64,000 nucleotides of DNA from Deltaproteobacteria bacterium GWC2_55_46 (GTDB lineage: Bacteria > Desulfobacterota > GWC2-55-46). The stretch is taken from the NCBI GenBank assembly GCA_001595385.3, contig LVEI03000001.1, positions 1,641,501-1,705,500 of the forward strand, written 5' to 3'. The position numbers were made by a program, and so were the translations under genes. Below the pieces are notes generated by a model, which saw only the letters and a program-made list of their open reading frames with translations, made no database searches and was not told the origin of the DNA. This document shows, piece after piece, positions 2,700 through 52,425 of the stretch. Numbering within the stretch: position 1 is the first letter of the stretch; each line of letters opens with the position of its first letter.

Positions 2700-2730
2700 T
2701 GATGTTAATAGAAAACGGGTGCGCCTTCCA

Positions 2731-2762
2731 GAAAAATCAGGAGCCGCCGGAGAGCGGCTCCT
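2731..2762 (-). terminator. Hairpin and U-tract between pstS and pstC (read-through terminator)
   Basis: On the minus strand AGGAGCCGC pairs with GCGGCTCCT (9 bp, 6-nt loop; bases 2739-2762) and is followed by a short T-run (bases 2731-2736). It sits 10 bases after the pstS stop and before pstC, where a partial terminator would let the binding protein be made in excess over the membrane subunits. The shape is seen directly; its efficiency is inferred. Confidence 0.72.
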
Positions 2763-2771
2763 TCTAATTGT

Positions 2772-3809
2772 CTATTTGCCCCAGACCGGCTGTGAGGCGC
2801 ACTTTATCTCTTTTGCCCAGGCGGCCTCCATAAGGTCGCTTACGTTTTTGGGGATAGGCACATAGTCGAGAGATTTTGCCATGGCGCCCCCGTTCCTGTA
2901 GGCCCAGTCGAAGAACTTCAATACCTCTTTGGCCTTACCGCAGTCCTGCGGGTTTTTCTGCACCAGTATGAAGGTGGCGCCTGCGATAGGCCATGAGCTT
3001 TTGCCGGGCTGGTTGGTGAGGACCACCGAGAAGCCGGGCGTGCCCTTCCAGTCGGCGCTTTCCCCGGCGGCCATGAACGTATCTATCGATGGGGAGACAA
3101 AGTTGCCGGATCTGTTGTTAAGCTGGGTGTAGACGAGCTTGTTCTGCAGGGCGTAAGCGTACTCGACATAGCCGATGGTGTTCTTTATCCTCTTTACGTA
3201 GGTGGCAACCCCCTCGTTCCCTTTGCCGCCAACGCCCACCGGCCAGTTTACGGCTGTGCCGAAGCCGACCTTCCCTTTCCAATCGGCGCTTACGCTGTTA
3301 AGATAGTTGGCGAATATCCAGGTCGTGCCGCTTCCGTCAGAGCGGTGCACAACGGTTATCTTCTCCTGAGGGAGCTTTACCCCGGGGTTGAGGGATGCTA
3401 TCTTCTGGTCGTTCCAGCTCGTGACCTTTCCGAGGTATATGTCGGCAAGGACCTCTCCGGTGAGCTTAAGCTCACCGGGCTTTACCCCCGCGAGGTTTAC
3501 AACAGGGACGACCCCGCCTATGGCCATGGGGAACTGCATGAGGTCGGACTGAGCGAGCTCCTTTGGAGCAAGCGGGGCGTCAGAGGCGCCGAAATCAACC
3601 GTCTTTGCCGTTATCTGCTTTATCCCGCCGCCGCTGCCTATAGACTGGTAATTGAGCTTAAGGCCCGTTGTCCTGGCGTACTCATAGGCCCATTTGGAGT
3701 AGAGCGGGTAGGGGAACGTCGCCCCGGCGCCGTTTATAAGCTCTGCCGAGGCTGCGCGAAAGCTTAAGCCAAGAAAGAGGACCGCAAGCAGGATCAGGTA
3801 TTTTTTCAT
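2772..3809 (-). CDS. pstS: Periplasmic phosphate-binding protein PstS
   Basis: PstS captures phosphate in the periplasm and delivers it to PstCA. The 345-residue precursor has a clear signal peptide (KK, hydrophobic core, then a cut after AASA near residue 22). The mature part starts with the family pattern INGAGATFPYPLYSKW, and contains IGSGGGIK and HRSDGSGTTWIF, whose Ser, Arg, Asp and Thr residues bind the phosphate ion. It is the first gene of the operon and is preceded by Pho half-sites at 3853-3881. Confidence 0.98.
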   Translation of the reverse strand: MKKYLILLAVLFLGLSFRAASAELINGAGATFPYPLYSKWAYEYARTTGLKLNYQSIGSGGGIKQITAKTVDFGASDAPLAPKELAQSDLMQFPMAIGGVVPVVNLAGVKPGELKLTGEVLADIYLGKVTSWNDQKIASLNPGVKLPQEKITVVHRSDGSGTTWIFANYLNSVSADWKGKVGFGTAVNWPVGVGGKGNEGVATYVKRIKNTIGYVEYAYALQNKLVYTQLNNRSGNFVSPSIDTFMAAGESADWKGTPGFSVVLTNQPGKSSWPIAGATFILVQKNPQDCGKAKEVLKFFDWAYRNGGAMAKSLDYVPIPKNVSDLMEAAWAKEIKCASQPVWGK

Positions 3810-21816: not shown

Positions 21817-21847
21817 CAGGCGCGATGCGCCTGTGATCTTGTTGTCA

Positions 21848-21940
21848 GCCGCTTCCCTACGCTGGTATTAACCAGATCAGGTCGTTAGGGTCTTCCCTCA
21901 AGCGGGAACTCTCAGCCCTGTCCGGACTCCCCTAGCGTAA
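21848..21940 (-). ncRNA. TPP (THI-element) riboswitch
   Basis: The minus strand carries the conserved core: GGGGAGTCC near the start, the CTGAGA pyrimidine-sensing box (plus 21910-21915), GACCCT, then ACCTGATCTGG followed by TTAATACCAGCGTAGGGAAG. This is the thiamine pyrophosphate aptamer. It lies between a good promoter and a terminator hairpin, 130 bases before the thiH-like start, so high TPP should stop transcription of the whole operon including lgt. Confidence 0.97.
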
Positions 21941-21949
21941 TTTCAGATA

Positions 21950-22031: not shown

Positions 22032-22625
22032 TTAAAGGAGCTTGCTGGCCGAGATGATGGTCTCCGCAATCTCGCGCATCTTCTTGTTTTCTTTCTGCGA
22101 ATGGGTCTGGAGGAGCTTGAAGGCGTCGTCTTCCGAGATATTGCACCTTTTCATGAGGATGCCCTTGGCGCGCTCGACCATCTTCCTGGTCTCGATGGCG
22201 TCCTTGAGGTCGCTGACCTCGACCTTAAGGCTTTTGAACTCATTGTACCTTGCCATGGCGAGCTTTATGGCTGGCTCAAGCTGCTTTTTTGTGACCGGCT
22301 TGACGAGGTAGGCGAAGACTCCGGACTCTATGGCCTTGCTGGCCATCTCATCAGACGAAAGGCCTGTTATGAGGATGATAGGCATGGGGCCCTTCGAGGA
22401 GATCGCCTTGGCAGCGTCTATGCCGTCCATCTCAGGCATCTTGACGTCCATTATGACAAGGTTCGGTTTTAACTCTTCGACCAGCTCCACCGCAGCCAGC
22501 CCGTTCGATACGGCCTCGACCTGATAGCCAAGGAGCTCAAGCTGGTTTTTAAGGAAGAGTCTCGTTTTTGAGTTGTCCTCAGCTATAAGGACTTTTTTTG
22601 CCTTCGCGGGAGACGGAGTGGTCAT
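22032..22625 (-). CDS. REC-ANTAR response regulator (RNA-binding antiterminator)
   Basis: A 197-residue two-domain regulator. REC has the acidic cluster AEDN, phospho-acceptor D60 (VIMDVKMPEMDG), T87 and K109 (VKPVT). The C-terminal ANTAR part (about 138-192) reads AIETRKMVERAKGILMKRCNISEDDAFKLLQ. ANTAR proteins bind paired short hairpins in nascent mRNA and prevent termination, often in nitrogen assimilation genes. No partner kinase or obvious target hairpin pair is next to it. It has its own 100-base upstream gap before the next gene. Confidence 0.93.
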   Translation of the reverse strand: MTTPSPAKAKKVLIAEDNSKTRLFLKNQLELLGYQVEAVSNGLAAVELVEELKPNLVIMDVKMPEMDGIDAAKAISSKGPMPIILITGLSSDEMASKAIESGVFAYLVKPVTKKQLEPAIKLAMARYNEFKSLKVEVSDLKDAIETRKMVERAKGILMKRCNISEDDAFKLLQTHSQKENKKMREIAETIISASKLL

Positions 22626-42934: not shown

Positions 42935-42978
42935 ACCTTTAGCGAGGGGAAGCAAAGCGACCGCCGTCAGCCGCTTAC

Positions 42979-48810: not shown

Positions 48811-48840
48811 TTGACAAAAGGATGTATTTTGGATTAGTAT
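48811..48840 (+). promoter_or_regulatory. Promoter of the tetraheme cytochrome
   Basis: TTGACA (48811-48816) and TAGTAT (48835-48840) are 18 bp apart. The transcript would start near 48847, giving a leader of about 345 bases before the ATG at 49191. Confidence 0.7.
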
Positions 48841-48881
48841 TGCGTTAAAGGATATTTAATAAATATCGTATACCTGAAAAA

Positions 48882-49110
48882 GGTTTTGAACTGATGGCGG
48901 TTCAAGGCCGGATCCTTAAAAGATTCAAACTGTAAACGCACGTCGTTGTTTTTCCGGACCTGAGCTGATGGCGGCTTGGGCAGGCCCACCGGGCCTGGTC
49001 GTTCCGGAAGCGCGGATAGGAGATCCGCAAGCAACTCCGCTGCAAGTGGGTTTGAGCTGATGGCGGTTCAGATTACACGCGGCAACTGAAGACCTCCTGG
49101 CTGGTCTTCA
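48882..49110 (+). ncRNA. Structured 5' leader with three TGATGGCG-loop hairpins (candidate new RNA element)
   Basis: Three hairpins carry the identical loop TGATGGCG: stem TTGAAC/GTTCAA (48886-48905), stem CCTGAGC/GCTTGGG (48959-48980) and stem TTGAGC/GTTCAG (49052-49071). The stems differ in sequence but keep pairing, with G-T wobbles. The middle one forms a gap-free three-way junction: P1 TTCCGGA (48952-48958) with TCCGGAA (49003-49009), then the TGATGGCG arm, then CAGGCCC-ACC-GGGCCTG (48981-48997). Further hairpins are GCGGAT-AGGAG-ATCCGC (49012-49028) and TGAAGACC-TCCTGGCT-GGTCTTCA (49087-49110); the CTCCT at 49094-49098, at the edge of this last hairpin's stem and loop, could pair with the AGGAG ribosome site at 49180. 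No known riboswitch class was matched. Confidence 0.65.
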
Positions 49111-49190
49111 GAGAATTCAAGATCCAACGTCAAGCCAGGTGTGAAACTGAACTGAACCTAAACCTACTTGTGAACTTAAAGGAGTTAAAC

Positions 49191-50132
49191 ATGAAAAGGC
49201 TTGCGTTAGCTTCTCTCATCGCTCTTTCAGCTGGCTTCGTAGCAGTTGGTACCTCATTCGCCGCTGATGATGCCGGCACAATCGCAGGCGGCGCCTTCGA
49301 TGCTGGCGATGCCGCCAGCGGTATCGGCCAGTCAAGGCATAACCTCGGTTCCCTCGGTAACAAGGCGAACACCTCCTTCTTCACCTCCACCGGGACATCC
49401 GAGATCTGCGTATTCTGTCACACGCCTCACCACACCAGCACCACAGGCGCGGGCCCGCTCTGGAACAGGGGCGCTTCCCAGACCTCCTTCACCGCCTATA
49501 GCACCACCATCGCAGGCACCCCCGTCGCCGCGCCTGGCGCGGGTTCGCTCGCTTGCCTCAGCTGCCACGACGGTACCACCACCTTTGACAACATCGCCAA
49601 CAAGCCTGGCAAGGGTCTCGGTGGCTCGTCTATCGGCGCTTCCGGTGACCAGAACTGGTACTTCTTCAAGGACAACAGCGCCCTTCAGACCAACACCGCC
49701 TCTGACGATGAGATCGGCAACTCTTCGACCTCCAGGCTTAACGTGGGCGGCACCAACAGCTCCGGGATCTCCAACGACCATCCGGTTGGTGTGACCTACT
49801 CCGGCGGCACGAAGGCCTCTCTCAGGCAGACTTCGCTTACCATCTCTAACATCAGCGTAAGCGCTGACCTCGCCTCGAGCGCCGGTACCTTCGATGACGG
49901 CAACCTTGCCCAGAACCGTTGGGCTGTGAACGGATTCATCTCCTCGACAGCGTCCATCGCTGACCTCCTCAGGGGCGGCCTCGTAGAGTGCACCACCTGC
50001 CATGACCCCCACTTCAGGAACAGGTCCTGGACTGAGGCCGAGACGGTTGATGCCTACACCGATGGTATGTTCCTCAGAAGGGTCGGCGGTAACGCCGGTT
50101 CCGGCGTCTGCAGAACCTGCCACGAGAAGTAA
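49191..50132 (+). CDS. Secreted tetraheme c-type cytochrome
   Basis: A 313-residue protein with a signal peptide (cut near SFA-AD, residue 25) and four CxxCH sites: 73-77 (CVFCH), 122-126 (CLSCH), 267-271 (CTTCH) and 307-311 (CRTCH). The stretch CVFCHTPHHTS after heme 1, CLSCHDGT, the distal-ligand-like SNDHPVGVTY (196-203) and CTTCHDPHF are typical of exported multiheme cytochromes of metal-reducing and related anaerobes. The 140 residues between hemes 2 and 3 are Ser/Thr/Gly-rich. Electron transfer at the periplasm or outside the cell is inferred. AAAGGAG lies 6 bases before ATG 49191; an in-frame GTG at 49170 precedes that site and is rejected. A strong terminator follows. Confidence 0.93.
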   Translation: MKRLALASLIALSAGFVAVGTSFAADDAGTIAGGAFDAGDAASGIGQSRHNLGSLGNKANTSFFTSTGTSEICVFCHTPHHTSTTGAGPLWNRGASQTSFTAYSTTIAGTPVAAPGAGSLACLSCHDGTTTFDNIANKPGKGLGGSSIGASGDQNWYFFKDNSALQTNTASDDEIGNSSTSRLNVGGTNSSGISNDHPVGVTYSGGTKASLRQTSLTISNISVSADLASSAGTFDDGNLAQNRWAVNGFISSTASIADLLRGGLVECTTCHDPHFRNRSWTEAETVDAYTDGMFLRRVGGNAGSGVCRTCHEK

Positions 50133-50152
50133 GCTTTTTACCTGCACCACAG

Positions 50153-50184
50153 AAGGGCGGGCCCTCGGGCCCGCCCTTTTTTTT
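50153..50184 (+). terminator. Strong terminator after the cytochrome
   Basis: AAGGGCGGGCC (50153-50163) pairs with GGCCCGCCCTT (50168-50178) around CTCG, followed by a run of eight Ts, 20 bases after the stop. Confidence 0.95.
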
Positions 50185-50415
50185 CTCAATAGCCGCGACA
50201 GTAACCGCACCGTGCTGGTCTCAAGGCGCTCGCCGTAAAATCTGACCGACCCGGACGTTCCAGCGGCCAACGCTCGTGGGGCTGTGAAAAACACTTTTTG
50301 GTGAGCCCCAGGGGTGGGGCGAGACAAGAATCGAACAGTTGGTTATATATATTTGTCTTTGGCTCCTCAGGACGACAACTTTGGAGACTTTTTCAGAAAC
50401 TGTCAGGGAGCAGAA

Positions 50416-52425
50416 GTGATATTTCATCCAGACATAAGCGCCTTGATCGAAGATAATCTCCCGACGATTTTCCTCATATACGGCTTCAGCTTCTTCTATG
50501 TAGCGCTCGCGATCCTCTTTAGCATGAAGACCTTGAGGTCTATAGGGCTCTTCGGCGCCTTCGTCTTTCTCTTCCTCTTCTCCGTCATCCATGGCTCGGT
50601 AGAGTGGCTTGACACATACAGGCAGTTCAGCATTCAGCTATACGGAGCTGACGTGAGCGAGCGCGTGCTCTATCTCAGGTCATATATGCTCTCCTCGTCA
50701 TTCGTCTTCATGCTGCTTTTCGGCATGACGCTATTTTCAAAAGTCGCCGGCTCTATAAGGCTTGCCAGGCTCTCAACGGTCATCGGGATAACGCTGGTGG
50801 TATTTTTCGCCGTACTCTTTAAATTATCGGCGGATGACAGCCTGGATAAGATCGAGGCGTTCAGCAGGGTATTGCTGGGCTTCCCTTCGGCGGCCTTCGC
50901 TGGAGCCGCCTTTTACATGCTCTCAAGGAAGGACTATGACACCTTCCTTCCTGAGCACCATTCCTGGTACTTCAGGTACAGCTGCTATATCATTGTGCTA
51001 TACGGAGTATTTTCGGGCCTCGTTGTCCCCAAGACCCAATTCCTGTTCGCGGACATCATTAACCAGAGGAGCTTTTTCGAGTACACCGGCTTGCCGGTTC
51101 AGGTCCTGAGGGCCTTTTGCGCGGTGGCCATATCGTATTTCATGATAAGGGCCATGGCCTTGAAGATATCCCAGCGGCTCATGGGCATCCTGGGGACGTT
51201 CTTTCTCCTCTTCTTTATCTTCGGCATGACCGGCTATATAAACCTGAAGCTGGTGATAAACAGCTATGAGACGATTACAAAATTAAAGGCCGAAGAGAGC
51301 CAGTTCTCCGACCTCGCGGCCTCCTTCGACAGGATATACGCGCTGCAGGGGGTGAAGGGCGACAGGGAGGCCAGGATACTCCTTGATGAGCAGCTAAGCG
51401 TATTCGGAACCGCGCTTGAGAAAACAAGGGCCCTGAGGCACACGGACCCGAGGGAGAACGCCCTCATTGAGGACCTGGCAAGGTTCTATGATGAGGCTAT
51501 TGCCGCCCGTTCTGATTTCAGGATAAGCAGGGCCGGGATGGAGAAGTTCAAATCAGCTATTGGCGAAGTAAGGCTGCTGCATTCTTCTGAGATCGGCGAA
51601 CAGTCGGCGCTGGTGGCGAAAATAATAGAGAATTCATTGTATCTGCGTTTCATGGTCCTCGCGGTATCCGTTGGGGCGTTCCTCTTTATCTGGTATTCGA
51701 TACACAGGACCATAATACAGCCCATCAGGAACCTGAGGGCCGGCGCCACCCAGCTCGCCGGAGGAAACCTGCAATACAGGATATCGATAAAAACGGCTGA
51801 CGACCTGCAGGAGCTGGCCGACGACTTCAACGTGATGAGAGAAAAGCTCCTTGAGCGTACCGAAAAGCTTGCCACCACGGCAAGGGAGATGGAAGAGCTA
51901 TCGACGCACGACGGGCTCACGGGACTCTATAATTACAGGTACTTCCATAACCGCCTGAAAGAGGAGATGCAGAAATCGGCAAGGGCGGGCGCGCCGCTTT
52001 CGGTGATGCTGATGGACCTCGATAACTTCAAATTATATAATGACAGGCACGGGCATCCAGCGGGGGACCTCCTCCTTAAGACCGCTGCGGAGATCTTCAG
52101 GCAGACGCTACGCGGCACCGACCTTATCTGCAGGTATGGAGGCGAGGAGTTCGTGGCCATATTGCCCAATACCGGCAAGGAGGGGGCGATTGTGGCGGCA
52201 GAGAACGTCAGGGCCAATATGGAAGGGCACGACTTCCCGCACAGGGAGACACAGCCCCTTGGCGCCGTGACTATCACCATAGGAGTGGCGCAGTACCCTG
52301 AGGACGCAACAAGCGCAGACGAGCTTGTCAAATGTGCCGATGACCTGATGTACAAGGCTAAAAAAGAGGGCAAGAACAAGGTCTACGCAGTGACGTGCAG
52401 CGCTGTTAAAGCCCAGATTGTTTGA
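50416..52425 (+). CDS. Membrane diguanylate cyclase (7TM-like sensor, HAMP, GGDEF)
   Basis: A 669-residue protein: about eight N-terminal membrane helices (about 12-280), a periplasmic four-helix-type sensor (about 285-410) closed by another helix, a HAMP domain (about 430-485, RTIIQPIRNLRAGATQLAGG) and a GGDEF domain with the intact GGEEF site (CRYGGEEFVAILPN) and an I-site RGTD five residues before it. It should make c-di-GMP in response to a periplasmic or membrane signal. GTG at 50416 with GGGAG 5 bases upstream is preferred; an in-frame ATG at 50314 would add 34 residues of poor character. It lies between the cytochrome and the polysaccharide cluster. Confidence 0.9.
   Translation: MIFHPDISALIEDNLPTIFLIYGFSFFYVALAILFSMKTLRSIGLFGAFVFLFLFSVIHGSVEWLDTYRQFSIQLYGADVSERVLYLRSYMLSSSFVFMLLFGMTLFSKVAGSIRLARLSTVIGITLVVFFAVLFKLSADDSLDKIEAFSRVLLGFPSAAFAGAAFYMLSRKDYDTFLPEHHSWYFRYSCYIIVLYGVFSGLVVPKTQFLFADIINQRSFFEYTGLPVQVLRAFCAVAISYFMIRAMALKISQRLMGILGTFFLLFFIFGMTGYINLKLVINSYETITKLKAEESQFSDLAASFDRIYALQGVKGDREARILLDEQLSVFGTALEKTRALRHTDPRENALIEDLARFYDEAIAARSDFRISRAGMEKFKSAIGEVRLLHSSEIGEQSALVAKIIENSLYLRFMVLAVSVGAFLFIWYSIHRTIIQPIRNLRAGATQLAGGNLQYRISIKTADDLQELADDFNVMREKLLERTEKLATTAREMEELSTHDGLTGLYNYRYFHNRLKEEMQKSARAGAPLSVMLMDLDNFKLYNDRHGHPAGDLLLKTAAEIFRQTLRGTDLICRYGGEEFVAILPNTGKEGAIVAAENVRANMEGHDFPHRETQPLGAVTITIGVAQYPEDATSADELVKCADDLMYKAKKEGKNKVYAVTCSAVKAQIV

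Follow-up and report, generated by a model that had tools for sequence, protein, structure and literature searches.

ANTAR-domain proteins are known to read a compact RNA target consisting of two small hexaloop hairpins, in which the loop bases A1 and G4 are conserved and the second of which overlaps a terminator; the eut consensus AGCAANGRRGCUY, which divides into stem and loop as AGC-AANGRR-GCU, is of this form (PMC3369931). In the structure of EutV bound to RNA, G4 makes the sole base-specific contact and A1 makes none, and Met172 of the protein has been proposed as a loop plug that sets the size of the loop (PMC8934654). Most descriptions of antitermination by ANTAR proteins concern nitrogen metabolism (PMC3369931); those of actinobacteria act in nutrient transport and metabolism (PMC8164766). 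By their description, the mycobacterial and actinobacterial targets have diverged beyond general models and some act on translation, in which they resemble the leaders described here, although they belong to another phylum (PMC8164766). Multiheme cytochromes are controlled in Geobacter by terminator-bearing leaders that contain GEMM-Ib (cGAMP) riboswitches, sometimes in tandem (PMC6456294). A search of the open-access literature for work joining the ANTAR domain with c-type cytochromes returned only the NtrYX system of a denitrifier.

The window analysed here, a stretch of 64,000 nt from the genome of Deltaproteobacteria bacterium GWC2_55_46, contains a gene for a secreted cytochrome with four CXXCH sites (49191-50132, + strand; Paired_CXXCH_1 and Cytochrome_C7) whose start is signal-peptide-like. 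A consensus scan places a sigma-70-like promoter, TTGACA-18-TAGTAT, at 48811-48840 (+), and homologous leaders carry TTGAC-17-TATAAT in the same place; the start of the leader is therefore expected near 48848, and a ribosome-binding site, AAAGGAG, is seen at 49178-49184 (+). The initial annotation had described three hairpins with one identical 8-nt loop in this leader, and the loop TGATGGCG is indeed present at 48892-48899, 48966-48973 and 49058-49065. The stems, given there as GAAC/GTTC, GAGC/GCTT and GAGC/GTTC, do differ from one another and do pair, but they are longer than described, with uninterrupted runs of 10, 7 and 9 contiguous pairs for hairpins 1, 2 and 3. Hairpin 1 (GGTTTTGAAC-TGATGGCG-GTTCAAGGCC, 48882-48909, +) was found by stem scan and has a pair probability of about 0.99, while hairpin 2 (CCTGAGC-TGATGGCG-GCTTGGG, 48959-48980, +) and the predicted switch hairpin, hairpin 3 (GGTTTGAGC-TGATGGCG-GTTCAGATT, 49049-49074, +), are each supported by stem scan, covariation and partition function. 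The 8-nt loop can be closed further by an invariant U.G pair and a G-C pair, such that AUGG is left. Hairpin 2 lies within a predicted three-way junction (48952-49009, +) formed by the closing stem TTCCGGA/TCCGGAA, the hairpin itself and an arm CAGGCCC/GGGCCTG; this junction had been called gap-free, which is correct for two of its joints, but the third has 5 unpaired nucleotides (48998-49002). Folding and a terminator scan also give a strong hairpin, CTGAAGACC/GGTCTTCAG, at 49086-49111 (+), which is without a U tract, and no U-tract terminator or terminator-like site was found in the leader.

When the 64-kb window was shuffled 100 times with its dinucleotides preserved, hairpins of this class with 6 or more pairs averaged 0.14 per shuffle, and three of them within 250 nt were observed in 0 of the 100; the folding energy of the leader lies 5.7 sd below that of its own shuffles (z -5.7). 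The 16-mer hairpin pattern has no further occurrence in the genome beyond the leader, and a search of 59 relatives for the exact pattern returned the three sites of the window, one stray site and nothing else. Because the exact pattern is nearly absent from relatives, homologous leaders were located via the protein instead. Of the 30 genomes of the taxonomic family, 27 encode a relative of this protein, and commonly more than one paralogue. A search of plasmids gave no match, and viral contigs gave four distant cytochrome relatives and nothing more, which were left unused.

The leaders upstream of these cytochrome relatives share a plan in which a promoter (TTGAC...TATAAT) is followed by hairpin 1 (H1), a short linker, hairpin 2 (H2) and a terminator, the whole extending about 100-125 nt after the promoter in the typical form. 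There, H1 presents a loop C-ANGNN-G over an invariant U.G pair, H2 has the form GGC-nAnGnn-GCC (for example GGCGATG(G)ATGCC), and the intrinsic terminator reads GATGCC...GGCATTTTTTT with a U-tract. The 3' arm of H2 is also the 5' arm of the terminator, and since the strand GATGCC is common to both, the two folds are mutually exclusive. An alignment of 27 typical cytochrome leaders supports both pairings: the terminator fold has 83.7% of cells paired and 73 double-changed cells, where shuffles give 30.6 and slid controls 8 to 17, and the alternative fold (H1 + H2) has 84.9% of cells paired. The U.G pair under the H1 loop is found in 27/27 leaders, as are A2 and, counted from the outer loop pair, G4 in both H1 and H2, and loop position 1 is C in H1 and G in H2, each in 26/27. 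The linker, measured from the H1 core, spans 9-17 nt. Three leaders of genus paralogues (L032, L018 and L019) have at least three such hairpins in a row together with at least one extra GATGCCTTG...CAAGGCATTTTTTT-type terminator further upstream.

The hairpins of the window represent a second loop form, C-U-G-A-N-G-R-C-G-G, which is also present in the leaders of two congeners (G003 and G001) and in single copies in G026, G028 and G012, the last as the variant CTAATGACGG. Across nine hairpins of this subtype, both bases have changed in 6 of 10 pairs, 93.8% of cells are paired versus 80.7% in shuffles, and 13 cells are double-changed versus 4.1. The three-way junction recurs in the same two congeners with its stems rebuilt, and this observation, together with the covariation of the subtype, indicates that the RNA structure is what is conserved. 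The earlier proposal of a conserved RNA rather than a DNA repeat is thereby supported, as the stems covary both within the leader and in the leaders of related genomes, and the hairpins do recur in homologous cytochrome leaders elsewhere. In the G003 leader (L006), whose protein is 65% identical, two subtype hairpins are accompanied by two with GATGACA and AATGAT loops. The window leader gives no match to the covariance model of typical leaders; what ties it to the wider set is the form of its loops, the way it pairs and the gene that follows. It is best read as a derived member that has three hairpins and is without a U-tract terminator, in which hairpin 3 is predicted to compete with a long-range helix. 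A further hairpin of the window subtype, AAGCGGC-TGACGGCG-GTCGCTT, lies at about 42955-42976 (-), downstream of a DNA methyltransferase-like gene, and may be due to chance.

How would a leader of this derived form act on its gene? The partition function gives hairpin 3 a probability of 0.99 in transcripts that end at 49115 or 49140, versus 0 in the full leader, where the 5' strand of the long-range helix (49043-49053, +) competes with the hairpin by pairing with a 3' strand (49160-49170, +) located about 8 nt before the ribosome-binding site. In this modelled fold, an ANTAR protein bound to hairpin 3 would block its opening by the helix 49043-49053/49160-49170, and such a hold is predicted to act on translation or late elongation. 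The long-range helix was sought in the leader of the G003 orthologue and was not found there.

A covariance model built from the typical leaders has matches in 38 of the 63 genomes of the class and in 8 of 297 genomes sampled across the phylum, seven of these 8 being of the same class and one a weak match elsewhere; the set is best read as confined almost to one class. Of the 74 hits within the taxonomic family, 50 lie directly upstream of the window's cytochrome family, and most of the named records that carry the leader motif are MAGs of uncultured groundwater Deltaproteobacteria. The element also precedes one orthologous PocR-GAF-GGDEF protein at 14 class loci, including one in the window's own genome (G000:C1:1779081; gene at L164:417-1979, about 1779216-1780778 of G000:C1), so that a c-di-GMP-type enzyme may share a regulon with the cytochromes. 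In the 14 PocR-GGDEF leaders the linker spans 6-14 nt, and some of the second loops are eut-like (AANGRN) with A1, A2 and G4, namely GGC-AATGAT-GCC, GGC-AAAGGT-GCC, GGT-AAAGGAT-GCC and GGT-AAGGGAT-GCC. A1 is seen in some PocR-GGDEF leaders only; overall, position 1 is C, G, U or A.

From these comparisons, we consider it likely that the leader is one of a group of cis-acting RNAs read by ANTAR-domain proteins through antitermination, with the window leader as a derived form. The confidence placed in this reading comes from the RNA architecture and the gene linkage, which are separate lines of evidence. As in the eut, nasF and amiE leaders (PMC3369931, PMC8934654), two small hairpins follow the promoter, and H2 of the typical leaders, but not of the window leader, shares a strand with the intrinsic terminator as P2 does. 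The loop core A2-N-G4-R resembles the eut AANGRR, the linker of 6-17 nt compares with 5-12 nt in E. faecalis eut, and ANTAR proteins are encoded in the genome, some of them adjoining the target gene. In contrast to the described targets, the first loop base is mostly C or G and forms a cross-loop pair, an invariant U.G lies beneath the H1 loop, the genes controlled are those of multiheme cytochromes and the PocR-GAF-GGDEF protein rather than nitrogen genes, and in the window copy there are three or more hairpins but no U-tract terminator. That position 1 is not always A counts against the ANTAR reading, as do the failure of the window leader to match the model, its want of a U-tract terminator and the divergence of stand-alone ANTARs from EutV at RNA-contact positions; moreover, the pairing across its loop means that H1 is not an open hexaloop. 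Because A1 was looked for and is absent from most members, the RNA is not filed as a canonical ANTAR target, and by analogy it is best read as working like one, with altered loops that keep A2 and G4 rather than A1 and G4. What is new is therefore the variant and its target regulon of multiheme cytochromes, not a wholly new kind of RNA. The initial annotation had recognised no known leader family, which holds for Rfam, where nothing was found in the cytochrome leader at gathering score, no match was obtained for the leader in Rfam 15 (GEMM-I riboswitches included) at E up to 10, and the leaders of 13 related loci gave nothing at E up to 1; it had, however, missed the ANTAR target RNA as a close analogue.

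In a typical leader with no active protein, the terminator would form by default and transcription would stop. An ANTAR protein gripping hairpins 1 and 2 via their nAnG loops would keep GATGCC occupied and so prevent the terminator, and the cytochrome gene would then be transcribed, a direction of control suggested by the folds and by the precedent of EutV. The bacterium thus probably controls its electron-transfer cytochromes by an RNA-level on/off switch.

Which proteins would read these hairpins? The taxonomic family has 14 stand-alone ANTAR genes, which encode no receiver domain, and 13 of them are located no more than 1 kb from this cytochrome family, compared with 0 of 56 REC-size ANTAR genes; these counts come from related genomes and do not represent independent events. 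ANTAR proteins are encoded in 63/63 genomes of the class and in 0/14 control genomes; since every class genome has one, the co-occurrence of RNA and ANTAR is uninformative, and some ANTAR-bearing genomes are without the RNA. The stand-alone proteins, of about 90-140 aa (L102:148-522; L104:549-977 and 2714-3025; L105; L106), diverge from EutV at several RNA-contact positions. Several of them carry N-terminal Cys pairs (e.g. CLSC) that might form a site for redox chemistry or metal binding. Most genomes also encode one or two REC-ANTAR proteins, and the one in the window, a candidate hairpin reader unlinked to the cytochrome there, is of type A (HSQKENKK; 22032-22625, -; Response_reg and ANTAR; PDB relatives 1s8n and EutV 6wsh/6ww6). 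At the positions of EutV Tyr164, Arg168 and Met172, as counted by hand on the alignment, it has Phe, Gln and Gln, and type B REC-ANTARs are EutV-like at these positions. None of the near-complete genomes in which type B is the only detected ANTAR (G030, G036, G048 and G055) has the RNA, and it is present in G012 and G040, which have type A only; against this, G011 lacks the RNA despite having type A, and in G061 (90% complete) the RNA is present and only type B was found. The identity of the REC-ANTAR that reads the RNA is only hinted at by this pattern.

A more specific proposal, to which we give a little less than even credence, is that these leaders embody a second ANTAR code, in which an AnGR core set on a cross-loop pair would be read by ANTARs not of the EutV type (HSQ-type or stand-alone), the stand-alone ones beside the cytochromes perhaps responding to a redox or electron-acceptor signal. 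The outcome would be a lineage-specific, post-initiation regulon of multiheme cytochromes, of which the window member would work by a fold switch near the ribosome-binding site in place of a terminator. We hypothesize that the tightening of loops by a cross-loop pair might accompany loss of the Met172 plug, although SQ-type ANTAR sequences may be widespread. An ANTAR-type regulon of multiheme cytochromes, if true, would connect electron transfer in uncultured groundwater bacteria with control at the level of RNA, in parallel to the cGAMP riboswitches of Geobacter but with a protein as the reader. The altered loops, together with ANTARs that differ at RNA-contact positions, would also offer a natural test of how ANTAR proteins choose their RNA.

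The initial annotation had left open whether a small molecule, a protein or an sRNA recognises the loop, and the evidence favours a protein over the other two. A different protein, CsrA-like or an unknown RNA-binding one, or a small RNA pairing via the loop, is a rather unlikely reader, even though identical loops repeated in one leader would suit any multivalent RNA-binding protein. CsrA needs GGA, and GGA is not constant in the H1 loops; antisense pairing would not permit the free variation seen at the N positions of the loop (2, 4 and 5). CsrA and an antisense sRNA were set aside because of this variation in loop positions, and any reader of this kind would leave the ANTAR link unexplained. 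Less probable again is a small-molecule riboswitch in which the two hairpins and the junction would serve as the aptamer for a ligand such as a cyclic dinucleotide. A terminator that would serve as an expression platform, the covarying structure and a GGDEF target gene would all fit such a switch, as would the Geobacter precedent of cGAMP riboswitches before cytochromes (PMC6456294). However, the leaders differ from Geobacter GEMM-Ib in having no Rfam riboswitch match, another fold, and conserved bases only in two small hairpin loops and the pairs that close them, less than a typical aptamer would need; in addition, the linker varies in length and sequence and ANTAR genes are linked to the cytochromes. 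That the hairpins are instead a DNA-level repeat, either an operator or a mobile element, is very improbable and largely refuted by covariation, for although two copies are 84% identical over a 31-nt direct repeat, both arms of the stems have changed and G.U pairs occur in them, the invariant U.G pair is one that a DNA palindrome would not keep, and all copies follow the promoter on a single strand.

Elsewhere in the window, a HAMP-GGDEF (diguanylate-cyclase-type) gene at 50314-52425 (+) follows the cytochrome and its terminator (50151-50180), and a TPP riboswitch (RF00059, 71.9 bits) is located at 21837-21943 (-), just downstream of the REC-ANTAR gene and on the same strand.
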